Shown in pieces: positions 6,846 through 23,386 of a stretch of DNA of 36,527 nucleotides. Every line of letters starts with the position of its first letter. Positions within the stretch are counted from its first letter, which is position 1. This DNA comes from Myxococcales bacterium SG8_38 (lineage in GTDB: Bacteria > Myxococcota_A > Polyangia > Polyangiales > Houyiibacteriaceae), in the NCBI GenBank assembly GCA_001303415.1, contig LJTN01000027.1:1-36527 (forward strand), written 5' to 3'. A program made the translations under genes and the position numbers. The notes beneath the pieces were generated by a model. That model was not told the DNA's origin, ran no database searches, and saw only the letters and a program-made list of their open reading frames with translations.

Positions 6846-7330
6846 ATGTCACCGTACGCCCGCCACATCCAGGACATACATCAGCTCATCGAGAAACGCC
6901 GTCCACCGCTGGTGAGGTCATTGCCATTCATTGGCCCGCTCCCGCAACTCCTCGGAGATGTTCTCCCCTTCCTCATGGAGAGTCGCGCCACCTGCGGGGA
7001 TGCCTTTCGTATCCGCATGGTGAACGTTGAGATTCCCCGCCTGTTTGGACCAGAGGCAATCGCCCTGCTTGAACCCGGCAGCTGCTTGCGGACGAGCAAG
7101 CCCATGCACGTCCTCGACGGGGAGTTGCACAGCCGTCTCCCAGCACCTTTGACGGCCCGCAGCACCAGATGTTTCGGAAAGTGCATCTCCAGTTCATGAA
7201 TGCGCGCTTGGAGTCGAGCCGCCGCGTGGACATCCAGAGCTGCCTTGCCAAGCACACCGCACGATGGTGCGCCGGAGTCGAGCTGGACGTGCTTCATGAA
7301 GCCCAGGTTCAAACGGTCGACGGGCAGCGG
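6846..7330 (+). pseudogene. Cytochrome P450, N-terminal fragment with frameshift
   Basis: From ATG 6846 the frame encodes a P450 N-terminus: LPFIGPLPQLLGDVLPFL (proline-rich hinge and helix A), GDAFRIRMVNVEI, and LFGPEAIALLEPGSCLRT (helix B region). At about 7140 the homology jumps to another frame, STFDGPQHQMFRKVHLQFM (the helix C 'G.xH...Rk' motif), and continues to VELDVLHEAQVQTVD. Helix I, the ExxR motif and the haem cysteine do not follow. The gene is therefore frameshifted and truncated after roughly 165 codons. The style is that of bacterial CYP51-like or related P450s. Confidence 0.75.
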
Positions 7331-7339
7331 TGGCTGCCG

Positions 7340-7495
7340 CTCCCGAACGGCAATACCCGCCGCTTCAGCTCGGGCGCCTGGAATCGAGTAGCCGGCAAAC
7401 TCGAAGTCCCGATCAGCGAAACGAAGCGAGCTGGTGGTGAGCTTCAGGAAATACACCCGAAAGTCGGGTCGGAGCCTCGGGTGTGCCAGTCATGC
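7340..7495 (-). pseudogene. Cytochrome P450, inverted K-helix/beta fragment
   Basis: The minus strand opposite the tail of the previous relic encodes LRLRPDFRVYFLKL, then SLRFADRDFEFAGYSIP. This matches the P450 segment from the K-helix ('E..LRl.P') through 'DFEfaGYsIPkG', which lies some 130-200 residues downstream of the plus-strand piece in an intact P450. The ExxR glutamate is not preserved, and no haem-binding loop follows. It faces the N-terminal fragment head-to-head, as expected if part of one P450 gene was inverted and its centre lost. Two unrelated P450 genes decaying side by side is the alternative. Confidence 0.65.
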
Positions 7496-7532: not shown

Positions 7533-9566
7533 TCACTCCACGAGCTCAACGCCTTGCGGCACCCACGAGCTGACGCCGCTCTCATCGCTGGGGGCGCGGG
7601 CCTTTGCGATTTGCTCCGGCGATGCCGTTCTCGGCTCGCTTAGAACAAATAAATCCACCGCTTCATCGTAGGGCGGCACCGCCAGTGAGCCGCGGTACTG
7701 GTAGTACTTTCGCCGTTCTTCGCTAGAAAAATACTCCTCTACATGTTTCCGATCTGGATCGAAAACCGTTCGGTGGCGTTTGAAGGTGCCGTTCAGAACT
7801 CGATCGATATCCTGGTTCTTCCTACCGTTTCGAAAAAGGACACTGATGATCAGGTACTGCGGCGGATCGTTGACGGATTTGACCGAGGCGACGTTCACCA
7901 CATGCATTTCCATCGGATACCTCATGCCGTCGAGCATGTGGGTCGAAGGCCCGTGAAAATGCACTTGTTCAAACTGGTAGCGTCGTCCGTGGAACATGAT
8001 CGGTGACCCTAGAGCCCACTTGGCGCGAACCGCGGTTCCAATCTCCCGGCCATGAATCGCCCTCTCGAGATCGAAGTAAGGTGCGACGCGGTGGCGTCCC
8101 GTTGGTCCCGTCGTGGTCCAGATGTTCACGGGCGCCTGAACGAATTGACATGCCAAGTCGGCCGCATCTTCATCCTGCGAGTTGCTCGAAGCAGGTGTCG
8201 CCGGAGTCGAATCCTCGACGAGAGCTTCCTCCTCGTGGTCGGTGACCCGCTCGAGCCCGCGAACGGTAGCCCCCGGGAAGAGTCCGCCGATGAGCAGCGT
8301 CGCCATGACCACCGTCAACGTGCCCGCTTCTCTTCTCATGAGATCGCGTTCTCCAATGTGTTGAGCGGACCCGCTGAACAGCACAAAGAACGCTCGCATC
8401 ACGGAGACGCCGTTGAGGGCGGTCGCGATGATGAGGGCGAACGCGAGTGCGGGAAACTCCCGAACCGAGCCCTGGACCAGCAAGTCCTCCGCGATGAAGC
8501 CCAGGGTGAGTGGAAGGCCGACGCTCGCAAAACCCATGAACAAGAAAGCCACGGCCATGCGTGGCGTTTGCGTGAAGCTTCCCGCTGGCGTTTGCAGGGA
8601 GAGGTCGCCGCGCCGCGCCTGGAGCGATGTCAGAGTCATCGCAAAACCAGCCGTTGCGACGCCGATCACCTGCCATGTTAGCAATGCGCCAATCTGAGCA
8701 ACCGAAGAGCTCGTATCGAGGCCAAACGCGACCAGGCCAGTCTGGCTCATTGCGAGGAATGCAAGCGCCCGCCTTGCATCGGTCTGGGCGATGCCAAGCA
8801 TGGCGGCGACGACGGCCGTGATCGCCCCGAGAGACGCCACGCCGTGAGCAAGCTGGTTGGGGAGCTCTCCGCGAAGAAGCTCCAGGTGTGCGTAGACGCC
8901 AAGCTGAGGTGCAAAGAAGGCGACCACGAGCCCCATGGGTGCGTATTGCACAAAAGGCGGGAACCAACTGTGGAGGGGAATCACCGCCTCGCGAATGCCT
9001 ATGCCTATCAGAACGAGCATGACTCCTGCGGCCGTGTGATTCTCAACGAGAAGAACCGCGCCAAGCCCGAAAGCAAAAGCGCTCGGAAAGTGGTAGATCG
9101 CAAACAGCTTTGCGATTCCCGAGGCCGGCTTGGCTGATTTGACATCCCGGAGCTCGAGCCAGGCGACCAGTGCCGAGGCGCCCCAGAGCACGGCCAGCGC
9201 AATTGGGTGGCGAATCGCCAAGAAGAGCAGCGCGATGGCGATGAGCAGCAAGATTCTACGAAATGTCCCCGGCCTGGTCTCGCTAACGGGACTCAGAGCA
9301 ATTGCGGTGAAGCCCATCAGACACGAGATCAGCGAGAATGCGGGAACCCAGGAATGCGGATCGTCCGCGGAGAGCCAAACCGTCGACCATCCGAACCACG
9401 GGAGCTCGAAGGTGTGCCAAACAATCTGCCCGAGTGCGATCAGGCCCGCGAACGCCATCGTGTAGCTGGCTCGATGGCGAGCTGTTCGGGAGGAGGTGGA
9501 ACACCCAACGAGCCATGACATGGGAAGCAGAAGGAGCAGCTCAAGCGCTGCAAAAACAGCGATCAT
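7533..9566 (-). CDS. NuoM/MrpD-like proton-channel subunit fused to alpha-carbonic anhydrase
   Basis: The 677-residue product has two parts. Residues 1-435 form about 14 membrane helices of the proton-conducting (PF00361, NuoL/M/N-MrpA/D) family: AWLEL with Glu137, IREAVIPLHSWFPPFVQYAP at 191-210 and ARRALAFLAMSQTGLVAFG at 264-282. An acidic linker (about 441-470) joins residues 471-677, an alpha-carbonic-anhydrase domain: QAPVNI (477-482), QVHFHGPSTH (534-543) and PMEMH (551-555), giving zinc ligands His536, His538 and His555, then YYQYRGSLAVPP (621-632). The usual Glu of 'SEH' is Thr542, the usual Thr of 'SLTTPP' is Ala629, and the N-terminal WGY region is missing. An even helix number and homology to NuoL/M/N would place the domain in the periplasm. 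The start overlaps dabB by four bases (ATGA), with GAGG seven bases upstream. It is the last gene of the operon. Confidence 0.88.
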   Translation of the reverse strand: MIAVFAALELLLLLPMSWLVGCSTSSRTARHRASYTMAFAGLIALGQIVWHTFELPWFGWSTVWLSADDPHSWVPAFSLISCLMGFTAIALSPVSETRPGTFRRILLLIAIALLFLAIRHPIALAVLWGASALVAWLELRDVKSAKPASGIAKLFAIYHFPSAFAFGLGAVLLVENHTAAGVMLVLIGIGIREAVIPLHSWFPPFVQYAPMGLVVAFFAPQLGVYAHLELLRGELPNQLAHGVASLGAITAVVAAMLGIAQTDARRALAFLAMSQTGLVAFGLDTSSSVAQIGALLTWQVIGVATAGFAMTLTSLQARRGDLSLQTPAGSFTQTPRMAVAFLFMGFASVGLPLTLGFIAEDLLVQGSVREFPALAFALIIATALNGVSVMRAFFVLFSGSAQHIGERDLMRREAGTLTVVMATLLIGGLFPGATVRGLERVTDHEEEALVEDSTPATPASSNSQDEDAADLACQFVQAPVNIWTTTGPTGRHRVAPYFDLERAIHGREIGTAVRAKWALGSPIMFHGRRYQFEQVHFHGPSTHMLDGMRYPMEMHVVNVASVKSVNDPPQYLIISVLFRNGRKNQDIDRVLNGTFKRHRTVFDPDRKHVEEYFSSEERRKYYQYRGSLAVPPYDEAVDLFVLSEPRTASPEQIAKARAPSDESGVSSWVPQGVELVE

Positions 9567-10927
9567 GGCAAGACCTCGTTACCTTGACGTTGCCGATCCC
9601 GAAGCGCGCTGCGATCGGTCAAATAGGCGACCCATGCCCTATCCAATCGGTCGATGCGCGATATGAACCTGAGGGCCGGGGCAACGATTCGATGCTTCAG
9701 CACTGCGTCGAAACCACCACGTTCGAGCGCGACACGATACAGCCAAGGTTGAAGCGCACCCGGAACGAGGCGCTCGATGTGACCGCCCGTTCGAGGCAAC
9801 TGTGCTCCCATCGCCTGTTCCAGATGGTGGTAGTCGTGGAGCAAACTCGGGGAGCGCAGAATCTGAAGTGTTCGAATCGCCGCGTGGCCGACGATGTGAG
9901 CCACTGCGAGGTAGTGGAGCCCCAGGCCGATCTCGACATAGATCAAGCCGACCTGAGTCATTGATGCGTACGCCAGCACACTCTTAATGTCGGTTTGTGT
10001 CCGTCCAACGAAAGTCGCGTGAAGAGCGGTCAACGCGCCGACTGCGATGACCGCGCCCGCGGCAACCCCCGAGGACTGCAGGATCGACTCAGACCGGAGC
10101 AGCAAGTAAGGCCCCAGATGAATCGACAGCGCGCCGTAGAAGATAGCGCTCGATGGCGTCGGTCCCTCCATCGCACGGGGAAGCCAACCGGATAGAGGCA
10201 GCTGGGCCGCCTTTCCGATCGACGCCCAGAGGATCAGCATTCCGACGACGGTCGCGCCTGCCCAGGTCGACGGAACGACGAAGCCCGCCCATGGACCGCC
10301 GGTGAAAGGCCCAACATCCGAGGTGCCGACGGTGAAGTGCAGCGCCACGGCGGCGGCCAGCAATCCGACATCACAGAGCCGATAGGTCCCAAAAGCGAGC
10401 AATCCGTGCTGAACTGGGGCACGCCTTTCGTGAAAGAACGCGATCAGTAAAGCCGAGGTCAATCCGACGAGCTCCCACCCAAGAAACGCCAGATCTAGGC
10501 TGCCCGCCAGCACCACAAACTCAACCCCGGTACCAAAGATGGCGAGGAGCAAGTAGAAGCGAGCGAACCCGGGCTCAAGGTGCAAGTAACGCCTCGAAAA
10601 TGACGCGACGAGACCGAGCAGAACGGAGGCGAACGTCGCAAAAGGGATCGACAAGCGATCGGCGATCAATTTCCATTCGAACGAGTAGTGTCCCACGGAG
10701 AACCAGCTTCCGATGGGGACCCGAACTTCGGTAGCGTCCGCGGCTATCAGGCAGGCCGCTGTGATGGCACAGGCGGCGACCGATACGACGAAACCAGTGC
10801 CGACGATGGCAACCGTGGTTCGTTCGCTCCACGGGTGGTAGAGCCAAGCGCGCAGCCCGAGGAGCAGCACCGTGAGCGCGGGAGACGCAACGATGGCGAG
10901 CACGATCCAGTCGACGACCGATTCCAT
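9563..10927 (-). CDS. dabB: DabB: NuoL-like membrane subunit of inorganic-carbon transporter
   Basis: A 454-residue membrane protein of the NuoL/MrpA family that partners DabA in DAB complexes and is thought to couple cation flow to CO2 hydration. Conserved features are Glu152 in the helix-5 WELVG motif, Lys239 in the IGKAAQLPLSGWLPRAMEGP block (237-256), and TQTDIKSVLAYASMTQVG (310-327). The helix-8 lysine of NuoL is replaced by His270 (ALSIHLGPYLLLR), and the 'HAFFKA' motif reads HAAIRT, as expected for a diverged DabB. The protein ends with a soluble tail soon after the twelfth helix, so it is shorter than NuoL. The ATG at 10927 shares one base with the dabA stop (TGATG). The 65 codons upstream lie inside dabA and are not used. 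Confidence 0.88.
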   Translation of the reverse strand: MESVVDWIVLAIVASPALTVLLLGLRAWLYHPWSERTTVAIVGTGFVVSVAACAITAACLIAADATEVRVPIGSWFSVGHYSFEWKLIADRLSIPFATFASVLLGLVASFSRRYLHLEPGFARFYLLLAIFGTGVEFVVLAGSLDLAFLGWELVGLTSALLIAFFHERRAPVQHGLLAFGTYRLCDVGLLAAAVALHFTVGTSDVGPFTGGPWAGFVVPSTWAGATVVGMLILWASIGKAAQLPLSGWLPRAMEGPTPSSAIFYGALSIHLGPYLLLRSESILQSSGVAAGAVIAVGALTALHATFVGRTQTDIKSVLAYASMTQVGLIYVEIGLGLHYLAVAHIVGHAAIRTLQILRSPSLLHDYHHLEQAMGAQLPRTGGHIERLVPGALQPWLYRVALERGGFDAVLKHRIVAPALRFISRIDRLDRAWVAYLTDRSALRDRQRQGNEVLP

Positions 10928-13917
10928 CACGCACTCCTCTCCGTGAAGGGGCCCGCCTTGACGTGAGCGGGGTTCAAATGACCACGCCTTCCCGCGTAGA
11001 AATCCATCGAGCGATCTACGATCGCGATTGCCAGGTTTTCGGAAACGTAGGGAACGAACCGCCCCTTGTCGTAAACAGCGAGCGCGTCGCCGTCGGGATC
11101 CCACGCCACGAGTTGGATCCACTCGTTTCTCACCAGATTCGCGAGTCCGGCCTCCTGGGCCAGCACACGCTCCAGCATCTGCGTGGTCGCCTCGACGATG
11201 GTCAGCAGCCGGACGGGCTCGTGAATCTCCACCATCTGCCAGGGTAGACCTGTTCTCAAGTCGGAGGCGTGGCCATCCATGATCCCGATGAGCCCGACGA
11301 TATTGTGCGGCAGCTTGGTGCCACAGCCGTACCCCGTCGGATCCACGAAACTAAAATAGTACTCGAGGTTAATTCCTGCGCCGACCGGTCCTACCGACCG
11401 AAGGAGCGCTGCGAGGATCGCGCCGGTTGGGTCTCGTGTAGGGTCGTAAGAAACCAAAAATGCTCGCCGGTCGAGGAACAGTCCGCGCGTGCGTTCTCTC
11501 CGTCCGACGATGCAGACCGCGTTCGTCGCGTGGCCATACTCCGGCCTAGGCTGTGCGAGATCGTAGGCATGCGACTCGGCATGGATGAGCGCGGATTCGG
11601 GGTTGAGGTCCAGCGAAGCCGACTCGAAGCGCCGGCACCGCTCGTGAGCATCGAGGCGACAAGCATCCGACATCGCCCCCTTGACGTCTTCCAACGTGTC
11701 GAGCAGATGCGCCGGCACCAGGTCCTCGTCGTAGTAAGTCATCGAATCATCGCAAGTGTTGTGGTACGCACCGACGAGCCAGGTCGAGTCGGGTATGAAG
11801 AAGCTCCGCGCCTTCAGGCGCTCCCGAACGCCCGCATCGTTTGCCATTTGAGCGAACGTGCGTGCGTTTGGTCCCCCTCGGCCCCCTCCGGTCGCGCCGC
11901 AATCGTGCGCAGCTTCATGCGGGTTGTTGAGACTCGACGAGCCGTGGCCGACAATGAGCACTAAGGGGCACAAGTTCTCCCCCATCCCCATCGTCGTGAG
12001 CACGGTGGCCACAATGTCCGCCATCTCGTCGAGCGTGTATCCCGACCGAAGCCCGTCGGGTCGGACCGCACCGGTTCCCTCCAGGGAGAGACGGGTTGGG
12101 GGAACCGGTGCGGTCCTCTGCAGTGCCCAGTGCGCTAGCCTTTCGGTACGCCGCGGAAACAGACTTCTCCCGATCAAGGGAATTACCGCCAGAAACCCGA
12201 GCAAGGCCGACAGCAGGCCGCCACGGGTCAGCATCTTGCTTCCGAGCGCAATTGAGTGGGTCATCTGTCCCTGACGCCGGCGCTTGCTCGCGAACACGGC
12301 GGCTTCGCTCTCATCGAGCGCCCGTTCGGTCACGTAGTGACTGGGGCGCACAGCTACCGGGCACAGGGGTCTCGGGCGAATGTCTTCCAGGCCCTGATAG
12401 GCCATGGCTATCCCGAAGAAGCCGGCATACCCGTACGTGTCCACGTCCGGCCGAAGCTCCTCGAGATGCCTGCGAAGCGATTCCTCCCGGTCATCGATGC
12501 AAAAGACCGCTTGAAACGAAGCTTTGCTGACGGGAGCGCGACTCAACCGGCAGTGACCCAAGATTCCATCGAGAACACCGATCCGATGTCTTCTTTCGTA
12601 CGCTAGATGCAGCACTCTCCGTCGCTCGTTAGAGTCGAACGCGCGCACTTCGTCGATCCACCGTCTCGCCTCGTTGGTGCTCGTCATTTCAGCCGGCCCC
12701 ACACCGGCCAACTGAGCTGCGATGAAAGCTTCGTAAACCAGCTCGAGGTCTAGCTCGGGTTGCGGCGCCATTTTCGCCAGCCGCCAACGGATTTCCGAAA
12801 GACTGGTCTGGTCATCCGTGCATCGATGAAGCTCGAACCTCGCGGCTTGGAGATCGAGCATCAGCTGTAGTGCGAGGTAGTCCGCCAGTCGGGCGGGTGG
12901 AGGGTGCACTGGAGCCGTATCGGGACGTATCTCCAGTTGGTGAATCATGCCTGCCCAACCCCGCAGTGACAGCAGCGTCGCCTCGATGTAGGCCTGCCAG
13001 TCCGATTTCGGAATTTCCAACTCGGCCAGGGCCCAATGCACGGTGGCCTCCGCATCCCATCCAAGGTCCTGCTGACGCCGCAGCTCCTCGGAGAGGCCCT
13101 TCATCCAGGGGTCCATTGGGCCCGACCCGACGCCATAAAGGGCGCGGAACGCTCGGAGCAAGCCTTGCTCCCGCTTGGGCATTTGCCAGTAGGCGATCCC
13201 CTGATCGACGAAGGCTGCGCAAAACCGAATGAGGAGTGGGTGAACCAGATCGTCCGTGTCGACACCAAACGCGTCGAGAATCTGGTCTCTTGTCCGGATC
13301 CCGGAGCGCTGACGAGAAACCGTTGGCGCCACCGCCATCAGCTGTTTCCAAAGGAGCTCGAGCGCTTGCTCCTCGCGGTCCTTCGGCGACATAGGAGCAC
13401 GGTCGACCGAGATGCGCTCGGCCGATTGCAGGATTGCAGCGCGTGCGAACTCAGGAACGCTTGAATGAAAACGAAACAAAGTCCTCATCTCTTCCAGCAT
13501 CCAGCGCAACGCTGGCCCTTTCGGAATCTCGAAGAGGTTCTGAACCCGGACCCTTCGGAGCTCTCTGCGCGATGGGCCTCCCGGAACGATCGGTGCATCG
13601 CCGCCTGTGGCAAAAGGGCCGAGCACGGCATCGATATCGGACGGTCGAATTCTCGCTGTCTCCAGGCATCTCGCAAACGCTTTTTCGGATTGGTAAGGCT
13701 CGGCGCCGAAGCGTTCCGCTCCCTTGAGGACCGCCTGCTCGAAGTGCAGGTGCTCGAACGCATGAAGGGTGTTGTGGTGCACGAACATGTGCAGGGGAGA
13801 CTGCTGGGGCAGGAGGTCCGCTGCATGCTCCAGCATCTCCAACAGAGAGCGGGGCTCGCTCTTTGATGCCGGCTTGGGCAGTGGAAACCGAAGTAGACTG
13901 TCGGCAGCAGTGGTCAT
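10927..13917 (-). CDS. dabA: DabA: DUF2309 zinc protein of inorganic-carbon transporter
   Basis: The 996-residue DUF2309 (UPF0753) protein is the beta-carbonic-anhydrase-like half of the DAB bicarbonate pump. It acts at the cytoplasmic face of the membrane and is proposed to hydrate CO2 in one direction only. The four zinc-site residues known from Halothiobacillus DabA are all identifiable: Cys473 and Asp475 in VFCIDDREESLRRHL, His658 in LIVGHGSSSLNNPHEAA, and Cys673 in HDCGATGG. The His-to-Cys spacing of 15 is the same as in the described protein. The frame is open 195 codons further upstream, but that stretch is Arg/Pro-rich antisense of sulP; the ATG at 13917 forms a TGATG junction with the sulP stop and gives the family N-terminus. 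It overlaps dabB the same way. Confidence 0.93.
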   Translation of the reverse strand: MTTAADSLLRFPLPKPASKSEPRSLLEMLEHAADLLPQQSPLHMFVHHNTLHAFEHLHFEQAVLKGAERFGAEPYQSEKAFARCLETARIRPSDIDAVLGPFATGGDAPIVPGGPSRRELRRVRVQNLFEIPKGPALRWMLEEMRTLFRFHSSVPEFARAAILQSAERISVDRAPMSPKDREEQALELLWKQLMAVAPTVSRQRSGIRTRDQILDAFGVDTDDLVHPLLIRFCAAFVDQGIAYWQMPKREQGLLRAFRALYGVGSGPMDPWMKGLSEELRRQQDLGWDAEATVHWALAELEIPKSDWQAYIEATLLSLRGWAGMIHQLEIRPDTAPVHPPPARLADYLALQLMLDLQAARFELHRCTDDQTSLSEIRWRLAKMAPQPELDLELVYEAFIAAQLAGVGPAEMTSTNEARRWIDEVRAFDSNERRRVLHLAYERRHRIGVLDGILGHCRLSRAPVSKASFQAVFCIDDREESLRRHLEELRPDVDTYGYAGFFGIAMAYQGLEDIRPRPLCPVAVRPSHYVTERALDESEAAVFASKRRRQGQMTHSIALGSKMLTRGGLLSALLGFLAVIPLIGRSLFPRRTERLAHWALQRTAPVPPTRLSLEGTGAVRPDGLRSGYTLDEMADIVATVLTTMGMGENLCPLVLIVGHGSSSLNNPHEAAHDCGATGGGRGGPNARTFAQMANDAGVRERLKARSFFIPDSTWLVGAYHNTCDDSMTYYDEDLVPAHLLDTLEDVKGAMSDACRLDAHERCRRFESASLDLNPESALIHAESHAYDLAQPRPEYGHATNAVCIVGRRERTRGLFLDRRAFLVSYDPTRDPTGAILAALLRSVGPVGAGINLEYYFSFVDPTGYGCGTKLPHNIVGLIGIMDGHASDLRTGLPWQMVEIHEPVRLLTIVEATTQMLERVLAQEAGLANLVRNEWIQLVAWDPDGDALAVYDKGRFVPYVSENLAIAIVDRSMDFYAGRRGHLNPAHVKAGPFTERSA
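10934..10942 (-). promoter_or_regulatory. Strong ribosome-binding site for dabB inside the end of dabA
   Basis: The minus strand reads GGAGAGGAG six bases before ATG 10927. It lies in the last codons of dabA and supports both the dabB start and translational coupling across the one-base overlap. It is the best Shine-Dalgarno match among the internal junctions of this operon. Confidence 0.7.
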
Positions 13918-15515
13918 CAGGCTGCTCGCCGGCGAGTGGAGTGCCGGTGGGCCGAATGTGGCATCAACTCTTCGATACCTAGAAACTCGAGCTTCGCGTT
14001 TTGCCATTTGGCCGACAGCTCCTCGACGCGGCTCAAGAACGTGTGATCTACGATCGCAACATCGGTCACGTCGATGACGACCCGAGTGAATTTCGGGTCG
14101 AGGTTGGCGACTTGCTTTCGTATGGAAAGAAGGCTCGTGAAGGCAGCCGCGCCGTGTAGAGTGAGACGGAGCTCCGGTTCCTCTTCGGCGCGCTCGACTT
14201 GTGTGCGGAACAGTTGCCGAAAGGTTGCGCCCCGGATGCGGTGCAGAATCAGCTTGAGAGCCAGCCCGGCGGCAACGCCGATCAAGAGGTCCGTGGCAAG
14301 GGTCACGAGCAAGGTGGTGACGAAGAGCAGGAGCTGGTCTGGTCCAATTTGCTTGATGTGGACGAGCTCTCTGGGGGATGCGAGCTTCGCACCAGTGTAG
14401 ACGAGCATGGCAGCCAGCGCCGTAAGCGGAATCTCGCTCAGGAGCCCCGGCGCCAGCGCAACGAAGCTGAGCAAAAATGCGCCGTGAAAGAAGTTCGCCC
14501 ACCGCGACTGCGCGCCGGCGTCCACATTGGCCTTGCTTCGGACGATTTCGGAGATCATCGGCAGACCTCCGACGAGCGCCGAGCCCAAGTTACCCAGCGA
14601 CAACGCGAACAGGTCTTTGTTGAGATTCGACGAACGCTTTTCCGGATCCATCAGGTCGACCGCGATCACGCTGAGGGTTGACTCGATCGTGCCGACGAGC
14701 GCATACATCACGACATACTTGAGCGACGCTGCGGTGAACACCATCGAGAAGTCTGGGAACACGATCGCGTCGGAAAGCGAGCCCGGAAGCTCGACCAAAA
14801 ATTCAGGCCCTACGTGGAACTGGTGCGAAAGGAACTGATAAGCGTGCTCGTGATCCAGGCCGAACCACAGGCTCAAGGGCACGGTGACTGCCAGTACGAC
14901 GATTGGGGCGGGCACGGCCTTTGCCCACTGCTTCCGAATCATCGGCCATCCGAACAAAATCAGGAGTGAGAGTCCTCCGAGCAGGAGGATTTCCGGGTTC
15001 GCGTGCACAACGCTTTGTGGGATCTCGGCGAGAAGCTCCAACGGTTCCTTGGCTTCGGGGGCGACGCCGACGAGAACGTGTGCCTGCTTCGATATGATGA
15101 TCACGCCGATTGCAGCCAGCATTCCGTGTACGACCGATGGAGACATGGCCACGCCGATTGTGGCCGCACGGAGCAGAGCCAGGGCGATTTGCACGCAGGC
15201 CGCGACGACCCCGACCGCTAAGGCTCGACGATAGCCGAGCCATGGATCTCCCTGACCAAGCTCTTGCACCGCGCCGAGCGCGATGACGATGAGGCCTGCC
15301 GCAGGCCCCTTGATCGTAAGCCGTGCGCTGCCCAGCAAAGTGACGACGATTCCCCCGATGATGGCCGTGAGGACACCAGCAATCGCGGGAAAGCCGCTCG
15401 CCATCGCGATTCCCAGACAGAGGGGAAGCGCGATCAGGAAAACTAGGAATCCCGCTTTGAGATCAGCAACCGGAAACGAGCGTCGAGGCTCGCTCGTCAA
15501 TTCGACTTCGGACAT
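13917..15515 (-). CDS. SulP family anion transporter with STAS domain (probable bicarbonate transporter)
   Basis: The 532-residue protein begins with the SulP signature region (DLKAGFLVFLIALPLCLGIAM, residues 19-39, then SGFPAIAGVLTAIIGG) and has 10-12 membrane helices. A STAS domain occupies about residues 440-525 (VVIDVTDVAIVDHTFLSRVE). SulP proteins exchange or co-transport sulfate, bicarbonate or organic anions. Being first gene in an operon with dabA, dabB and a carbonic-anhydrase fusion makes bicarbonate the likely substrate, as for BicA and other CA-linked SulPs; this is inference from context. GGAAGG sits nine bases upstream of the ATG at 15515. The stop overlaps the dabA start by one base. 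Confidence 0.88.
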   Translation of the reverse strand: MSEVELTSEPRRSFPVADLKAGFLVFLIALPLCLGIAMASGFPAIAGVLTAIIGGIVVTLLGSARLTIKGPAAGLIVIALGAVQELGQGDPWLGYRRALAVGVVAACVQIALALLRAATIGVAMSPSVVHGMLAAIGVIIISKQAHVLVGVAPEAKEPLELLAEIPQSVVHANPEILLLGGLSLLILFGWPMIRKQWAKAVPAPIVVLAVTVPLSLWFGLDHEHAYQFLSHQFHVGPEFLVELPGSLSDAIVFPDFSMVFTAASLKYVVMYALVGTIESTLSVIAVDLMDPEKRSSNLNKDLFALSLGNLGSALVGGLPMISEIVRSKANVDAGAQSRWANFFHGAFLLSFVALAPGLLSEIPLTALAAMLVYTGAKLASPRELVHIKQIGPDQLLLFVTTLLVTLATDLLIGVAAGLALKLILHRIRGATFRQLFRTQVERAEEEPELRLTLHGAAAFTSLLSIRKQVANLDPKFTRVVIDVTDVAIVDHTFLSRVEELSAKWQNAKLEFLGIEELMPHSAHRHSTRRRAA

Positions 15516-16267: not shown

Positions 16268-18106
16268 ATGAACGATGTGGAAAACGACAAGCCTTGGGAG
16301 TTTGCCGGCTGGGGACGCGCTGAACGCCTCACGAGCTTATCGGCGAGCCTTCCGCTGACGCGCTTGGATCAACCCGAGAAGCATCTGCTTGGTAGCTGGC
16401 GCGCCACCGCAATCTGCGGCAATGACATCAGTTCCAGCGTTCTTTACGTGTCTGCCTTGTGCGCTGCGCAAGCGGGCGCGCTCGCCCCGGTCGTCTTGGT
16501 CGTCGTCGCAGTGGTCCTCTACCTCTATCGAAACGTTTATGCCGAGGTCGGTAGCGCGTTGCCGTTGAACGGTGGAACCTATACGGTCCTTCTGAACACG
16601 ACAAACAAGCGCATTGCTGCGGCGGCTGCCTGCCTCACTCTACTATCTTACATCGCCACGGCGGTCATCAGCGCGAGCGAAGGCATGCACTATGCTCACC
16701 ACCTTTGGGGAGGGTTGGACGTCTTCGCAGCCACCATCGGCGTCCTCGGCACCTTTGCTCTCCTGGGTATCATCGGGATTGGCGAGTCGGCGATCGTCGC
16801 GCTCGTGATCTTCATTTTGCACATCGCCGTCCTTGCGATCCTCGCAGTCGTTTGCGCTACCGTGGTCGTGCGAAACCCTTCGCTTTTGTTCGAAAATTGG
16901 CATCTCCCGTCGACGACCAGCGTTCCTCACGCGCTCTTCTTTGGATTCGCCGCGGCGATGCTCGGAATTAGCGGCTTCGAAAGCTCCGCCAACTTCATCG
17001 AGGAACAGAAGGAAGGAGTCTTTCCGAAGACGCTCCGCAACATGTGGATCGTGGTTTCGATCTTCAACCCCTTGATGAGTCTCCTTTCGCTGGGCCTTCT
17101 TCCGTTGGCAGATATTCAAAAAGTACCGCCCGATCTGCTCGCCCGCATGGGAGAGGTTGCAATGGGCCGAGAGCTTGGGCTTCTCGTCAGCGTGGATGCG
17201 GTGCTGGTCCTGTCCGGCGCCGTGCTGACGAGCTTCGTCGGGGTCACGGGCCTGGCGCGACGCATGGCGCTCGACCGCATCCTTCCTCAATTCCTGCTTC
17301 GCGAGAACAAGTGGAGAGGCACCAATCACTGGATTCTCCTCGGATTTTTGGCGCTGTGCGTCTCAATTTTGTTCATCACGCGCGGTGAGATCTCGTCTCT
17401 TGCGGGCGTGTATACGCTCGCCTTCTTGAGCGTGATGGCCTTGTTCGCGGTTGGCAACATGCTCCTCAAGGTAAAACGGGCCCGCCTCCCGCGCGCAGTC
17501 CGTGCGAGCTGGCCCGCCGTCACCATTGGCTTGTTCGCCGTTCTGCTCGGACTCTTGGGCAACATCATCCTCGACCCGATTAACGTAGAGATATTCGAAG
17601 TCTATTTCCTGGCAACGGCGGCCGTGGTTGCGTTGATGTTCATGCGTCGCGAGATGCTCAAGGTGGCGCTCTACGTAGTCAGGGCAATCGTCGAAAAGCT
17701 AGGCACGGCGAGCCAATGGATTCACGACCTCATCATGGGAGAGATTCAGCGCATCAGTGAGACTGCGATGGTGTATTTCACTCGCGGTGACAACATGGTC
17801 ACGCTCAATAGAGCTGTCCTCTACGTCCTTTCGAACGAACAGACTTCCCGCCTCAAGGTCATCCACGTTTACGAAGATGAGGCGACGATTCCCTCGGACC
17901 TCGCCGACCAGCTCAGAACCATCGATCATCTGTATCCACAACTGCGAATCGACTTCGTCGCGGTTAAGGGAAAGTTCACGCCCGAGGTCATCGAAGCGAT
18001 CTCTCGCCGCTACAGCATCCCCAAGAATCAGATGTTCATCGGCACCCCCGGCGACCATTTCCCTCATCGCATCGAAGACCTCGGGGGCGTGCGACTCATT
18101 CTCTAG
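16268..18106 (+). CDS. APC-superfamily amino-acid/organocation permease with cytoplasmic C-terminal domain
   Basis: The 612-residue protein has about 12 membrane helices in residues 40-470. The unwound helix-1 region is GSWRATAICGNDISSSV, a typical APC substrate-binding entry, and GFESSANFIEEQKEGVFPK (helix 6 and loop) is also typical. The final 130 residues are soluble and include MVTLNRAVLYVLSNEQTS and VIHVYEDEAT, resembling a universal-stress-protein-like regulatory tail as found in some APC transporters. Substrate is unknown. It is transcribed divergently from the sulP-dab operon across 752 bases, so shared control is possible but not shown. Confidence 0.85.
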   Translation: MNDVENDKPWEFAGWGRAERLTSLSASLPLTRLDQPEKHLLGSWRATAICGNDISSSVLYVSALCAAQAGALAPVVLVVVAVVLYLYRNVYAEVGSALPLNGGTYTVLLNTTNKRIAAAAACLTLLSYIATAVISASEGMHYAHHLWGGLDVFAATIGVLGTFALLGIIGIGESAIVALVIFILHIAVLAILAVVCATVVVRNPSLLFENWHLPSTTSVPHALFFGFAAAMLGISGFESSANFIEEQKEGVFPKTLRNMWIVVSIFNPLMSLLSLGLLPLADIQKVPPDLLARMGEVAMGRELGLLVSVDAVLVLSGAVLTSFVGVTGLARRMALDRILPQFLLRENKWRGTNHWILLGFLALCVSILFITRGEISSLAGVYTLAFLSVMALFAVGNMLLKVKRARLPRAVRASWPAVTIGLFAVLLGLLGNIILDPINVEIFEVYFLATAAVVALMFMRREMLKVALYVVRAIVEKLGTASQWIHDLIMGEIQRISETAMVYFTRGDNMVTLNRAVLYVLSNEQTSRLKVIHVYEDEATIPSDLADQLRTIDHLYPQLRIDFVAVKGKFTPEVIEAISRRYSIPKNQMFIGTPGDHFPHRIEDLGGVRLIL

Positions 18107-18322: not shown

Positions 18323-19000
18323 ATGCGCCCGGGCTCGATAACCAAGCGCACCCGCAAGATACCGCGCAGCGCTGCCCTGCTGCTGGGAGTGCTCGTGCTG
18401 ATCGTGATCAGCCCGTCGCTCTCCTTCAAGGGTGGACGGCTCGTCGCCGAGCTGATCTTCGACGTCATCTTCATGACTGGCGTGTACGCCGTCGGACTCA
18501 GCCGGCACCGTTGGGCGTTTGCAGGCTTGAGCGCGATCACGCTGGCGGTTCGTTGGACCGAGCTGCTTCACAACGGCGGCGGGCTCGACGTTCTCGCTCT
18601 CGGTCTGACCGCAATTTGGCTCGCCTATGCGGCAAGCGTCATCATCGTCGACTTGTTTCAGCGGAGCGACGTGAACTCGGACACGATCCTCGGCGCCATC
18701 GTCACGTACCTGCCGGTCGGGATCGCCTTCATGATGGTCTTCCAAGTCCTCGAACTGAGATATCCGGGATCGTTCTCCGGATTGCCCGAAGGTGCGCACG
18801 ACCATCGGCACGCCATGGCGTCCTCGATGATGTACTTCAGCTTGGTCTGTCTCACCACCATGGGCTACGGCGACATCGCGCCCGTTACGGATTTTGCAAG
18901 GCCGTTGTCGGTGCTCGAAGGCGTCTTCGGGCAGCTTTACCTCGCGGTCATGATCGCAAGGCTGGTGGGGCTACACATCACGAGGCAGAAAGACGGTTAA
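18323..19000 (+). CDS. Small potassium channel (Ion_trans_2 type)
   Basis: The 225-residue membrane protein carries the potassium selectivity filter TTMGYGD at residues 178-184, preceded by a pore helix (HAMASSMMYFSLVCL) and followed by a last helix (VFGQLYLAVMIARLVGL). Four more hydrophobic segments lie in residues 17-140. It has no RCK/TrkA-N regulatory domain; the C-terminus stops a few residues after the last helix. The channel would pass K+ across the inner membrane. Its stop (TAA) overlaps that of the convergent RND pump gene in the palindrome TTAA at 18997-19000. Confidence 0.88.
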   Translation: MRPGSITKRTRKIPRSAALLLGVLVLIVISPSLSFKGGRLVAELIFDVIFMTGVYAVGLSRHRWAFAGLSAITLAVRWTELLHNGGGLDVLALGLTAIWLAYAASVIIVDLFQRSDVNSDTILGAIVTYLPVGIAFMMVFQVLELRYPGSFSGLPEGAHDHRHAMASSMMYFSLVCLTTMGYGDIAPVTDFARPLSVLEGVFGQLYLAVMIARLVGLHITRQKDG

Positions 19001-22000
19001 GCAGAAGGCGCGGGTGCGCTTGATGCCGACTGGGGGTCGCCAGTCTCGCCCGCTGCAGAGCCATCGTCGTCGATCTTGGCGTTGAAGAAAATAGCGTAAA
19101 GGACGGGCACGACCACCATGGTGAGGATGGTTGCAACCGCCAGGCCGAACACGATGGTGACGGCCATGGCGACGTAGAACGCATCGAGAAAGAGGGGAAC
19201 CAACCCCAAGATGGTGGTGAGCGCAGCCATGGCCACGGGCCGCAAGCGGCTCACGCCACTGTCCATGATGGCCTCGTAGGTGGATTTGCCTTCCTCCCGT
19301 TCGAGGTCGACCTGCTCCACCAGCACGATGGCGTTCTTGATCAGCATGCCCGAAAGGCTCAGGAAGCCGAGCAGCGCCATGAAGCCAAATGGCTGCCCGA
19401 GCAGGAGCAACCCCGCGGTGACGCCGATGATGGCAAGCGGCACGGCGAGCCAAATGACCAACGTTTGGCGGATGGCGTTGAAGAGGCCGACGACGATCAA
19501 GATCATGATGCCGACGAACATGGGAATTGGCGCGAAAAGCGCCGCCTGCGCATCGCGCTGTGATTCGTATTCGCCGCCCCACTCGACGTAGTAGCCCGCA
19601 GGAAAATCCAGCGCTTCCACTTGGGGCGCCAGACGGGCCCAGAGCGTCGGTGCGGAGTCGTTCGTCGGGTCGGTGACGACCGTGAGCGTACGCTTTCGGT
19701 TGCGACGCTCGACGACCTCGTCGGACCACACCGTGTCGAGGCCCGTCACCACGTTGGCCATCGGAATGTACCGTCGAGCAACCGGGCTCCAAATTGGAAT
19801 CTGCCGAAGATTGGCCACATCGACACGCGTGGGTGCGGGCTGACGGAACCGAACCGGGATGATCTCCTCCCCTTCCCGGTAGACCCCGGTCGTCTTTCCC
19901 TGAAACGTTCGAAGAATCGCGTCGGCTACGTTCTGGGTGGTGATGCCGTGAACGTCCACCTGCTCCTCGGAAAGCCGCGGGCGAATCAGTTTGACCCGCT
20001 CGTACCATCGGCCGCGAGAGCCCTTGGTATCCGGGTCGGCTTTGAAGATGGCAAGCACCTGCTCCTCGAGCTCCCGCAGCACGTCCGGGTCGGGGCCTAC
20101 CAAGCGGGCTTCGATCTTGCCAGGCTTGCTGGGTCCAAGATCGAAGGTGCGGCCAAAAACGATCGAGTCGGGAGCCGCCTGACGGACGTATTCTTCCGCG
20201 CGCTCGATGTCGCGAGCAAGCGTCTTGTAGTCTTCGATATCGATCAGGAACTGCGCGTAACCGCTGTGGGGCTTCTCGGGCGTGAACGTCAAAATGAAGC
20301 GAGGGGGTCCCTGCCCGATCGCCGTGGCCACGTGCGTCACGCCTTCGAGCTCGGCCAAGCCCTTCTCGACGACGGCCGCTTTGCGCTCGGTTTCATCGAT
20401 GTGCTGATCGATCGGCCAAAAAACGTCGACCCGGAGCTTCGGCGTCGTAGACGCCGGGAAGAACGCTTTGTCGGTGAACTGAAAGCCATACACGGAAGCC
20501 GCAAACAAGCCCACGACGATACCTACGGTCGCCCAGCGGCGGCGAAGGCAGAGGGCAAGAAACCCTCGGTAACCTCGATAGAACTTGGTGTTGTATGGAT
20601 CTTGGTCTGCGGAGTCGGAGCCTGCCTTGGAACCGCCCAGAAACCAGATCCCGAGCAGGGGCGTGATGGTCATCGCCGTGACCCAACTGAGCGAGAGTGA
20701 AATTCCGATCACGACGAACAACGAGCGACAAAATTCCCCCGTGCTGTCCGGAGACAACCCGATCGCAGCAAACGCGATGATGGCAATCGCCGTCGCTCCG
20801 AGCAGTGGCATCGAGGTCTGATGGGCAACCTCACTCGCTGCGGCTTCCGGGTCCATGCCGCGTTTGACTCGAATCAACATGCCATCGATGATCACGATGG
20901 CATTGTCGACCAGCATCCCGAGCGCGATGATGAGCGCCCCGAGCGAGATGCGCTCGAGCGCTACTCCCGCGGGCGACATGAAGATGAAGGTCATCGCGAT
21001 GGTGAGCACCAGCACGAAGCCGATGATCAAGCCGCTCCGAAGCCCCATGAAGATCAGGAGCACGGCAATCACGATGGCTACGGCCTCGACGAGATTGATC
21101 AAAAAGCCATTGATCGCCGTCGTGACCATGTCCGACTGCATGTAGATGACCTCGAGCTCCATTCCGAGCGGAATCTGCTGCTGCAGCTCCGCGAGGCGCT
21201 TCTTGATGCCTTCGCCCATGACCACTACGTTTCCGCCTTGTTCGGTGGAGACGCCGATTCCGATGGCTCGGTGGCCGTCCATGTGTAGCTTGTTCTCGGC
21301 AGGGTCTTGATAGCCCCGGACGATGGTGGCGATGTCGCGTAGCCGAGCTTGCGATTCGTCGCCTTTGGTGATGAGGATGTCTCCTAGGTCTTGCGAAGAA
21401 TGGATCAGCGAGTCGGGCCGAATCCGTAGATACTCGTTGCCGGCCTGCACCCTGCCCGCATCCACGACCACACCCTCGGCCACGAGCTGACTGCTGATAT
21501 CGTCGGCCGAAATGCCGATTTGCGAAAGCCTCTCTCGGTCGAACTCGACGTAGACCACTTCGTTGACCACGCCGAACAGCGTGACCTTGGCCACGTCCTT
21601 GACGAGCACCAGCTCTCTACGAAGCAGCTTGGCCACGTCATAGAGCTCTCGATAGCTGTACTCGTCTCCGTGTAACGCGAAGAACACCCCGTAGACGTCG
21701 GAATAGTCGTCGATGACGAGCGACGGACCGGCGCCCGGCGGCAGCTTCGATTGCGCATCGCCTACTTTGCGGCGAAGCTCGTCCCAGGCCTGGGGCAACG
21801 CTTTGCTCGGCACGGTCGAGCGCATTTCGACGCTGATGACCGATTTGCCTGGAGTGTTTCGAGATTCGATCTTCTTGATCTTTCCGAGCTGTTGGATCGC
21901 TAGCTCGATCTCGTTGCTCACCTCCTGTTCGACTTCGTACGGGCTCGCGCCGGGGTACGGCGTTACCACCAGCGCCTCTTTGATGGTGAACTCCGGATCC

Positions 22001-22107
22001 TCCAGACGTGGCAGGCTCGAAAAGCTCTGCATGCCCGCGTACAGCGCTACGATCGTCAGCACGACGACTGGCGTACGATTTCGGAGCGAAAAGTCGGTGA
22101 GGTTCAT
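18997..22107 (-). CDS. RND efflux pump, inner-membrane transporter (AcrB/MexB-like)
   Basis: The 1036-residue protein has the two-fold RND architecture: a first helix at 11-30, a porter domain, helices from about 330, a second porter domain, and the final helix block. Typical motifs are LVVTPYPGASPYEVEQEV near residue 50 and LGMLVDNAIVIIDGM around 397-411. The first acid of the AcrB proton-relay pair is Asp401, but the second position is Asn402. A lysine in the late block (GMLIKNAIVLVEQVD) fits AcrB Lys940. It exports drugs or other small molecules using the proton gradient. The ATG at 22107 overlaps the adaptor stop by four bases (ATGA); the 62 in-frame codons further upstream lie within the adaptor gene and are not used. 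Confidence 0.92.
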   Translation of the reverse strand: MNLTDFSLRNRTPVVVLTIVALYAGMQSFSSLPRLEDPEFTIKEALVVTPYPGASPYEVEQEVSNEIELAIQQLGKIKKIESRNTPGKSVISVEMRSTVPSKALPQAWDELRRKVGDAQSKLPPGAGPSLVIDDYSDVYGVFFALHGDEYSYRELYDVAKLLRRELVLVKDVAKVTLFGVVNEVVYVEFDRERLSQIGISADDISSQLVAEGVVVDAGRVQAGNEYLRIRPDSLIHSSQDLGDILITKGDESQARLRDIATIVRGYQDPAENKLHMDGHRAIGIGVSTEQGGNVVVMGEGIKKRLAELQQQIPLGMELEVIYMQSDMVTTAINGFLINLVEAVAIVIAVLLIFMGLRSGLIIGFVLVLTIAMTFIFMSPAGVALERISLGALIIALGMLVDNAIVIIDGMLIRVKRGMDPEAAASEVAHQTSMPLLGATAIAIIAFAAIGLSPDSTGEFCRSLFVVIGISLSLSWVTAMTITPLLGIWFLGGSKAGSDSADQDPYNTKFYRGYRGFLALCLRRRWATVGIVVGLFAASVYGFQFTDKAFFPASTTPKLRVDVFWPIDQHIDETERKAAVVEKGLAELEGVTHVATAIGQGPPRFILTFTPEKPHSGYAQFLIDIEDYKTLARDIERAEEYVRQAAPDSIVFGRTFDLGPSKPGKIEARLVGPDPDVLRELEEQVLAIFKADPDTKGSRGRWYERVKLIRPRLSEEQVDVHGITTQNVADAILRTFQGKTTGVYREGEEIIPVRFRQPAPTRVDVANLRQIPIWSPVARRYIPMANVVTGLDTVWSDEVVERRNRKRTLTVVTDPTNDSAPTLWARLAPQVEALDFPAGYYVEWGGEYESQRDAQAALFAPIPMFVGIMILIVVGLFNAIRQTLVIWLAVPLAIIGVTAGLLLLGQPFGFMALLGFLSLSGMLIKNAIVLVEQVDLEREEGKSTYEAIMDSGVSRLRPVAMAALTTILGLVPLFLDAFYVAMAVTIVFGLAVATILTMVVVPVLYAIFFNAKIDDDGSAAGETGDPQSASSAPAPSA

Positions 22108-23213
22108 CGACGGGTCTCGTCCGATTCTTTCATCTCGGTCACTTGCCGACCTTCGGTCAGCAGGTGGACGCCGCTCATGGCGATGGCCTCGCCCCCTCGA
22201 AGGCCGCTCTTGACCACGATCTTGTCTCCCGTCACCGCACCGACCTCGACCGGCTTCTTGGACACCCGCATCGACTCTGGGTCGACCAACCAAACGAACG
22301 GCTCCCTTTGCGCATCTGCGATCACGGCAGCTACCGGCACCAGGAAATCCTCGGCCTCCGTCGTGCGCAGGCCTGTGAGCACCAGCTTGGCCGTCATTCC
22401 CGCGAGCACGCCAACCTGGTCGGGCTTTCTCATGGTGAACGTCGCCCGGAAGGTCCGGGTGCTCGGATCGGCCGCCGTGGCGAGCTCGGTGAGCTCGACC
22501 GGAAACCCACGGCCCGGCAATGCCGAGAGCTCGACCATGGGCTTGGCCACGTTGTTGAACTTGTCGAAGTCGATGTCGTCTCGGCGCCCGGTGAGATCGC
22601 GCTCGGGAACGTCGACTACGACCTCCATCATCGACTCGTCTTGCAAGAGCAGAACCGGCTCGCGTGCTGCAACGTTGCGAAAGTCGGTCACCAGCTTGCG
22701 CGCGATGACTCCGTCGAAGGTCGCGCGGAGCCGGGTTTCCTCAAGCGCCTTCTTCTGGATTTGCAGCTCTGCGCGAGCCACGTCTCGGGAACGGGTTGCG
22801 ACGTCGAGGTCACGCTGGGTTCCGGACCCCGACGCAAAGAGCTTGCTCTCGCGGCGGTACTCGGCTTCCGCCAAACGCAGCCGTGCGAGCGCGGCATCGA
22901 CCTTGGCTTGATAGTCGCGCGCGTCGAGGCGCGACAGAATCTGTCCCTGCTTGACCCGCTGGCCCTCGTCGACGTTCCAGTCCACGATGCGGCCGGGCAC
23001 CTCGAACGCGAGCTCGACGACCTTGACCGCCTTGATGCGACCCGGGTAGTCGGGCCGAGTGCTCCCAGCCTGCCCTTCCAAGTGATAGATCTTGATTGGC
23101 CTCGTTCCAGGCTCGACTTCGACGACCTTCTCTTTCCCACAGCTCGCAGCCGCGAACGCGGTGGACAGCGAGAACGCCAGCATTAGGTCTCGAATGCGCA
23201 TCATGGAGAACAT
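22104..23213 (-). CDS. RND efflux periplasmic adaptor (HlyD/MFP family) lipoprotein
   Basis: The 369-residue protein carries a lipoprotein signal with Cys25 (AFAAASCGK). It contains the biotinyl-lipoyl half motifs (AFEVPGRIVDWNVDEGQRVK and LRATFDGVIARK), an alpha-helical hairpin between them (LARLRLAEAEYRRESKLFAS), and beta-barrel and membrane-proximal domains after residue 200. It bridges the RND transporter and the TolC-like protein. It is translationally coupled to the downstream pump gene and divergent from the outer-membrane component across about 170 bases. ATGs at codons 4 and 5 are alternative starts; no clear ribosome site decides. Confidence 0.9.
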   Translation of the reverse strand: MFSMMRIRDLMLAFSLSTAFAAASCGKEKVVEVEPGTRPIKIYHLEGQAGSTRPDYPGRIKAVKVVELAFEVPGRIVDWNVDEGQRVKQGQILSRLDARDYQAKVDAALARLRLAEAEYRRESKLFASGSGTQRDLDVATRSRDVARAELQIQKKALEETRLRATFDGVIARKLVTDFRNVAAREPVLLLQDESMMEVVVDVPERDLTGRRDDIDFDKFNNVAKPMVELSALPGRGFPVELTELATAADPSTRTFRATFTMRKPDQVGVLAGMTAKLVLTGLRTTEAEDFLVPVAAVIADAQREPFVWLVDPESMRVSKKPVEVGAVTGDKIVVKSGLRGGEAIAMSGVHLLTEGRQVTEMKESDETRR

Positions 23214-23386
23214 GGTGATGTCCGTCTCGGAAGCTCTTTTCGGGGTTCTTTCGCGGTCGCGGCAGCATAGGCAGCTCGATTCGCCTTGCCAAGGCCAAAG
23301 GCGAGCGCTGCGGCATCATGACGCCGCAAATCCTGGATAAATTCGCCCTACAGAAACCACCCGACGTCGTCTATGCTTCGCGCCCT

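Follow-up and report, generated by a model that had tools for sequence, protein, structure and literature searches.

A DAB-type operon with a second antiporter-like subunit and a carbonic anhydrase-derived tail in Myxococcales bacterium SG8_38

The window analysed here, a stretch of 36,527 nucleotides from Myxococcales bacterium SG8_38 (contig LJTN01000027.1), contains an inorganic-carbon operon of the DAB type in which an antiporter-like membrane subunit ends in an alpha-carbonic anhydrase (CA) domain, raising the question of what such a tail does and how protons would pass through the complex that carries it. On balance, the operon appears to encode a DAB complex with a proton path through two antiporter-like subunits, one of them bearing a CA-derived tail that would most probably be a weak hydratase or none.

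The operon occupies positions 7533-15515 of the minus strand and consists of sulP (13917-15515; SulP-family anion transporter, PF00916), dabA (10927-13917; PF10070, 807.7 bits), dabB (9563-10927; 454 residues, NuoL-like by matches to PF00361 and PF00662) and a nuoM-like gene (7533-9566). The stop codon of each gene overlaps the ATG of the next, at shared position 13917 for sulP and dabA, at shared position 10927 for dabA and dabB and inside 9563-9566 for dabB and the nuoM-like gene. These overlaps and the Pfam matches bear out the preliminary description of the four minus-strand genes as one DAB-type operon. The SulP protein is possibly a bicarbonate carrier; it scores 103.4 bits against the NCBIfam equivalog model for BicA (cut-off 880), which does not support BicA orthology. 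A divergent APC-family permease gene on the plus strand (16268-18106) also adjoins the operon in another genome of the genus (G002), where the protein is 89% identical, and is probably a neighbour with no part in the system. The host genome also has another dab locus, of the ordinary type, and three matches to beta-CAs, so that the operon is not its sole carbon supply; no match to RuBisCO (PF00016) was found in this genome, which is 92% complete.

The nuoM-like gene is a single open reading frame of 677 residues without an internal stop. PF00361 matches residues 172-381 (69.8 bits, cut-off 21.5) and PF00194 matches residues 526-661 (74.6-78.3 bits, cut-off 27) in the same frame, each half also having been searched alone, so that the alpha-CA domain noted previously does lie in the same chain as the PF00361 subunit. 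CA-like sequence begins around residue 469 (about position 8162), roughly 18 residues past the last modelled helix and at the point where the mature part of the short alpha-CAs of the genus also begins. The tail comprises residues about 469-677 (positions 7533-8162). G+C at codon positions 1, 2 and 3 is 0.63, 0.44 and 0.66 over residues 451-677, which is coding-like, compared with 0.65, 0.48 and 0.72 over residues 1-450.

The membrane half (residues 1-450, positions 8217-9566) is NuoM-like in its model, Foldseek matches and conservation. The model has 14 transmembrane (TM) helices by manual count; its top Foldseek match is the subunit M chain of complex I, and chain 6tjv_D of NDH-1MS is match 5. 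The TM12 acid is Glu360/Asp361, and an acid is present in this motif in 46 of 46 aligned NuoM-like sequences (group III and L124 left out). Basic residues lie on the odd loops of the model and the C-terminus is acidic; this positive-inside count predicts that the tail is periplasmic, on the side of the membrane opposite DabA, as the preliminary description had also placed it. The CA part of the model has a pLDDT below 50.

The tail retains the three zinc histidines of the alpha-CA family (His536, His538 and His555) and the second-shell glutamate. In human CA II numbering, assigned by motif, Glu106 is replaced by Thr542, Thr199 by Ala629, Thr200 by Val630 and Trp209 by Leu639. The conserved asparagine at 508 is also altered. 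The Glu106 and Thr199 equivalents are Glu and Thr in all 19 aligned free alpha-CAs (19 of the order's 35 free matches). The closest CAs, with 34-38% identity, include seven short alpha-CAs of the genus (L006-L010, L014 and L025), which share the shortened N-terminus of the tail but differ from it in standing alone, in having an N-terminal signal-like segment and in keeping Glu106 and Thr199; of the 77 positions that are invariant among these seven, the tail keeps 40 and changes 37, catalytic ones being among those changed. In human CA II the T199A substitution slows catalysis about 100 times and makes bicarbonate and other inhibitors bind about 20-fold more tightly (PMC3688778). With the zinc site kept and the Glu106-Thr199 relay and the tryptophan of the CO2 pocket lost, the tail would most likely hydrate CO2 poorly or not at all; the Thr and Ala at the Glu106 and Thr199 equivalents make it a probably weak carbonic anhydrase, and the earlier view of it as a normal carbonic anhydrase is not upheld. 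The best reading of these residues is a lineage-specific pseudo-CA that may bind zinc or bicarbonate, or may be drifting.

The distribution of the fusion was examined in 94 dab loci (90 from Myxococcota and four actinobacterial), comprising the window, 80 regions found from DabA matches and 13 retrieved with the fusion protein or the NuoM-like subunit as query (L022-L024, L027-L031, L045 and L047-L050), which are biased towards having a NuoM-like subunit; five short DabA fragments (G334:C622, G488:C457, G335:C9, G174:C352 and G258:C376) were left out. The fusion occurs in one of the 94, that of the window's genome, so that it does not characterise the DAB system in general; the general feature is the second antiporter-like subunit. 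G002 has the operon, and there the NuoM-like subunit ends at 455 residues without a tail. In the 31 CA loci scanned, no reading frame matched a CA and an antiporter together; there, NuoM-like and DabB profiles were run on frames of at least 400 codons and some frames were also read by eye; shorter frames, only partly covered, are too short for a 450-residue antiporter plus a CA. The CA frames of at least 400 codons hold either CAs in tandem or a CA preceded by a long upstream frame. No relatives of the tail were found in viral contigs, and none of the 140 plasmid records with a match to the query covers 80% of it; the matches in the ten of these that were listed are located in the antiporter half. 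The literature searches brought up no published alpha-CA/PF00361 fusion, in agreement with the earlier statement that no described DAB system with a fused alpha-CA was known.

The presence of the fusion in a single genome of the sets searched, and the shorter subunit of G002, would also fit a rearrangement by-product, in which the nuoM-like gene acquired a CA gene at its 3' end, the addition being tolerated while it drifts without function. Just downstream, positions 6846-7430 hold the disrupted and partly inverted remains of a cytochrome P450 gene, of which the counterpart in another genome of the genus (G004) is an open frame of 461 codons, and G+C at third codon positions is down to 0.58 at the far end of the tail; the 37 changed positions point the same way. 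However, about 209 codons of frame remain intact despite the low identity to the nearest CAs, the codon-position composition is coding-like, and the three zinc ligands and 40 of the 77 invariant positions are kept. This explanation is considered rather unlikely.

If the tail is functional, it might be a periplasmic, zinc-bound domain for sensing or capturing bicarbonate that would gate the periplasmic proton half-channel according to outside bicarbonate, the T199A-type change having made an enzyme into a receptor within a two-antiporter DAB complex; this combined proposal is given a low probability. It is improbable that the tail is an active periplasmic CA converting bicarbonate to CO2 for capture by DabA. 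The retained zinc ligands and the predicted periplasmic side fit this role, and a supply of CO2 would suit a CO2-using pump such as DAB2 (PMC13144422), but the equivalents of Glu106, Thr199, Thr200 and Trp209 and the asparagine at 508 are all changed, and T199A by itself costs human CA II about 100-fold in rate.

The core of the operon can be compared with DAB2 of Halothiobacillus neapolitanus (DabA2-DabB2; 9rd0, 9rd8 and 9rd9), with which it shares the zinc ligands, the Asp-Arg dyad and a NuoL-like DabB, here encoded beside dabA. The window DabA keeps the residues of the Cys-Asp-Arg-His-Cys zinc site (Cys351, Asp353, Arg355, His524 and Cys539 in DabA2 numbering). Unlike DAB2, the window has a second antiporter-like subunit, a shortened DabB with Glu144, a SulP protein and the CA-derived tail, and its DabA lacks Glu444: position 444 is Ala in the MAFFT alignment and Pro in that of phmmer, in a finger region that aligns weakly between the two classes of locus. 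The DabB model has 11 TM helices by manual count followed by a low-confidence tail, so the DAB2-type proton path of DabA Glu444 and DabB TM12-15 is absent. In DAB2, E444A/Q abolishes activity (PMC13144422).

The main counts concern 23 and 45 of the 94 loci. In the 23 with dabB upstream and with neither a NuoM-like nor a SulP gene, Asp or Glu occupies the Glu444 column in 22, DabB Glu144 is present in none and 177-202 residues follow NuoL-342. In the 45 where dabB lies downstream and a single NuoM-like gene is present, an acid lies in this column or at most two columns away in one locus, two of the 45 being without this part of DabA. Outside groups I and III, Glu144 is present in all 51 DabB sequences readable at that position, and 58-127 residues follow NuoL-342 in 45 of the 50 that could be read there. 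Thus, the second antiporter-like subunit goes with a shortened DabB that keeps the complex I Glu144 and with a DabA without Glu444. The DabA tree, from which four fragmentary rows were dropped, splits group I from the rest with a support of 0.963; these differences are at the level of clades, and locus counts are therefore not independent events. Outside the main counts are 12 loci that are cut or are without dabB or dabA, six with dabB downstream and no separate NuoM-like gene, and eight with at least two NuoM-like matches (those of L145 probably being a single gene split over two overlapping frames). Among the six, DabB and the NuoM-like subunit form a single polypeptide in L138 and L141, L123 and L148 are cut by contig ends, and L149 and L152 lack the acid with no convincing NuoM-like gene found downstream. 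Asp or Glu at 444 is kept in seven of the eight multiple-gene loci, and L124, with a NuoM-like gene and no dabB found, has Glu there, so the second subunit alone does not predict loss of the acid. No description of a two-antiporter DAB class was found in the papers searched.

A core complex of this composition could instead be a Na+- or H+-coupled bicarbonate importer, with a tail that binds bicarbonate, rather than a CO2 hydratase. A Na+/HCO3- symporter has been proposed for MpsAB of Staphylococcus aureus, a homologous dissolved inorganic carbon system (PMC13144422) for which no mention of a second antiporter-like subunit or CA was found, and for which PMC8552792 gave no match to a fusion, NuoM, SulP or PF00361; the window DabB is more complex I-like than that of DAB2 at Glu144, and the operon includes SulP. 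DabA nevertheless retains the entire zinc and Asp-Arg site on which DAB2 depends, and an importer is considered improbable. An artefact of assembly or binning is a very improbable source of the fusion, since, although the assembly is a draft of 105 contigs and the fusion was seen once, the frame is kept across a joint at the start of the mature CA domain with no leftover signal peptide seen by eye, the flanking DNA on either side has matches within the genus (positions 6887-7322, beyond the CA, match five other genomes at 78-84%) and PF00194 has no second match in the genome.

In the preferred reading of a two-antiporter DAB complex, DabA would act in the cytoplasm as a zinc-dependent CO2 hydratase, pushed to turn over in one direction by protons entering through the membrane subunits. 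The proton path would consist of two complex I-like subunits, the shortened NuoL-like DabB and the complete NuoM-like subunit, with DabB TM1-11 supplying the cytoplasmic half-channel and the TM12 acid of the NuoM-like subunit standing in for the absent Glu444, and with SulP likely to serve as a bicarbonate or anion carrier within the operon. In one lineage, the periplasmic C-terminus of the NuoM-like subunit would have gained a domain descended from a short alpha-CA like those of the genus; if kept, the tail would serve as an accessory that binds zinc and bicarbonate, not as a source of activity.

Cyanobacterial NDH-1MS (NdhF3/NdhD3/CupA), a vectorial CO2 hydratase, sets its hydratase beside one NuoL-type and one NuoM-type subunit and is thus alike in outline, suggesting a similar role, although the window has DabA rather than CupA as its hydratase and the operon encodes no electron-transfer arm. 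In the 2026 DAB2 structure paper, the finger glutamate of DabA is proposed to complete the proton path in an arrangement called highly conserved (PMC13144422). If the two-antiporter reading is true, a more complex I-like proton route, close in outline to that of NDH-1MS, can drive the same hydratase. A second class of DAB would then offer a direct test of the coupling between proton flow and one-way CO2 hydration, and the fused pseudo-CA could serve as a natural probe of pump regulation from outside.

The minus strand of the window carries, from 15515 to 7533, sulP, dabA, dabB and a NuoM-like gene in this order, and their stop and start codons overlap by 1–4 bases at all three joints. Translational coupling within a single operon, the four-gene DAB operon of the preliminary description, is therefore very probable. 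Its terminal ORF (677 aa) matches PF00361 at residues 172–381 and PF00194 at residues 526–661 in a single frame, so that the proposed alpha-carbonic anhydrase (CA) domain does lie in the same chain as the PF00361 subunit. The window DabA keeps all five zinc-site residues of Halothiobacillus DabA2, the roles of which are taken from PMC13144422. By the NCBIfam cut-off, the SulP does not qualify as a BicA ortholog.

The CA-derived tail retains the zinc residues H536, H538 and H555 and the second-shell residue E553. It has lost the conserved Asn at 508 and carries T542, A629, V630 and L639 in place of what we take, by motif, to be E106, T199, T200 and W209 of human CA II. E106 and T199 are invariant in all 19 stand-alone CAs aligned, out of 35 such matches in the order. 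The carbonic anhydrase domain described earlier is thus upheld in its zinc residues, but with T542 and A629 at the E106 and T199 positions the tail would be expected to have little hydratase activity. The model of the membrane half has 14 counted helices, with TM12 broken, and then a charged helix; the CA part of the model, of very low confidence (pLDDT < 50), was left unused. Because the odd loops are rich in basic residues, and acids are found on the even side and at the C-terminus, the tail is predicted to lie outside, on the side opposite DabA that had been suggested for it.

Within the order, 31 of 183 genomes carry PF00194 matches (36 in all), and so do 53 of 377 genomes in the phylum sample (61 matches), which overlaps with the order set. 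Every CA frame of at least 400 codons from both lists was fetched and scanned, and among these only the window's chain joins a CA to an antiporter. When eight free CAs, seven from the genus and one from the order, were made into a profile, it matched only the window's ORF among ORFs of at least 100 codons in the 94 dab loci, and the eight loci found in genome contigs by NuoM-like alignment gave no CA match. Since none of these sets yielded a second case, the fusion is known from one genome. Four tandem alpha-CA domains occupy one 926-codon frame in genome G246 (contig C143; L166:639–3419, minus strand), and G273 and G354 have two such domains in one frame (L176 and L177).

A genome of the same genus, G002, holds the same block, with an APC permease divergent from sulP–dabA–dabB–NuoM-like and 76–79% DNA identity to the window. 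Its NuoM-like protein is 77% identical to the window's and ends at 455 aa, and DNA similarity stops at window position 8240; the tail was therefore either gained in the window lineage or lost in G002. The tail shares 34–38% identity with short alpha-CAs of the genus (seven genomes), and its start coincides with that of their mature domain. The DNA 3' of the tail (6887–7322) matches five other genus genomes at 78–84% and the host's own contig C88 at 77%, and by these matches is genus DNA. Its counterpart in G004, also of the genus, is a cytochrome P450 gene (L175, PF00067) with an open frame of 461 codons. The window's P450 remnant (6846–7430), directly adjoining the 3' end of the fused gene, is no longer intact, and two of its pieces run in the opposite direction to those of G004; the site has thus undergone rearrangement, which may be how such a fusion arose. 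Because this spot beside the fused gene is rearranged, drift of the tail is an explanation to be taken seriously.

Elsewhere in the window, a single ORF (28054–30249, plus strand) combines a family 2 glycosyltransferase with a PaaK-like AMP-forming CoA ligase. A TolC-like match starts about 350 residues into another ORF (23318–25765, plus strand), opposite which lie an RND efflux permease and adaptor (18997–23213, minus strand).

Group I of the dab loci comprises 23 loci with dabB upstream of dabA and neither a NuoM-like gene nor SulP, and group II comprises 45 with dabB downstream and one NuoM-like gene. According to PMC13144422, DabB2 has 15 TM helices, Glu444 of DabA2 stands in for NuoL Lys399/Asp400 and E444A/Q abolishes DAB2 activity. 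The 444 column holds Asp or Glu in 22 of the 23 group I loci; an acid occurs there or within two columns in one of the 45 group II loci (L086, with a weak NuoM-like match), two of which lack this stretch. SulP lies within the fetched stretch in 29/45 group II loci. Counting against a simple rule linking the NuoM-like subunit to this acid are L124 (NuoM-like gene, no dabB found, Glu at 444), L149 and L152 (no acid, no convincing NuoM-like gene) and the loci with at least two NuoM-like matches (Asp or Glu in 7/8). L104, L105, L107, L108, L130, L031 and L090 show a third layout, in which dabB is accompanied by two or three further antiporter-like genes and Asp/Glu is kept at this column. The group II layout is complete in three actinobacterial loci (L047, L048 and L050; Saccharothrix, Actinokineospora); in a fourth, L049, it is present except for a dabA match. 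The DabA tree splits group I and Halothiobacillus DabA2 from the rest (support 0.963), so the group counts mirror clades, not independent events.

The DabB pattern agrees with this split. Outside groups I and III, every readable DabB (51 of 51) keeps NuoL-Glu144; so do 8/8 of group III (eight DabBs set apart in this comparison), but none of the 23 in group I. Beyond NuoL-342, DabB continues for 177–202 aa in group I and for 58–127 aa in 45 of the 50 readable sequences of the middle set (139, 159, 294, 660 and 663 in the rest). The window DabB model has 11 counted TM helices and then a low-confidence helical tail. In the NuoM-like alignment, the TM12 motif contains an acid in every one of the 46 sequences. 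There is good evidence that DabB and the NuoM-like subunit are partners, since they form a single polypeptide in two loci from two genomes (L138:3681–7172, 1163 codons; L141:88–3900, 1270 codons; both minus strand).

DAB itself is already known. The literature searched, including passages of PMC8552792 and PMC9894237 and thin in subscription papers, described neither a DAB class that has a second antiporter-like subunit nor the fusion of a CA to such a subunit, in line with the earlier statement that no described DAB is known to have an alpha-CA on a PF00361 subunit; as weak evidence of absence, this suggests that both are undescribed. Periplasmic protons would enter via the NuoM-like subunit (TM12 acid), go on to the TM4–11 channel of DabB and drive one-way CO2 hydration by DabA in the cytoplasm, an order of proton steps that we infer only from homology and residue swaps. 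For SulP, transport of bicarbonate or of some other anion is a possible role.

The host draft genome (3.6 Mb, 105 contigs, 92% complete), the window's relatives being Myxococcota, has no PF00194 match besides the window's. It has no RuBisCO match, but it has three beta-CA matches and a further dab locus of the ordinary group I type; the operon therefore likely supplies bicarbonate or controls pH in a host for which no Calvin cycle was found.
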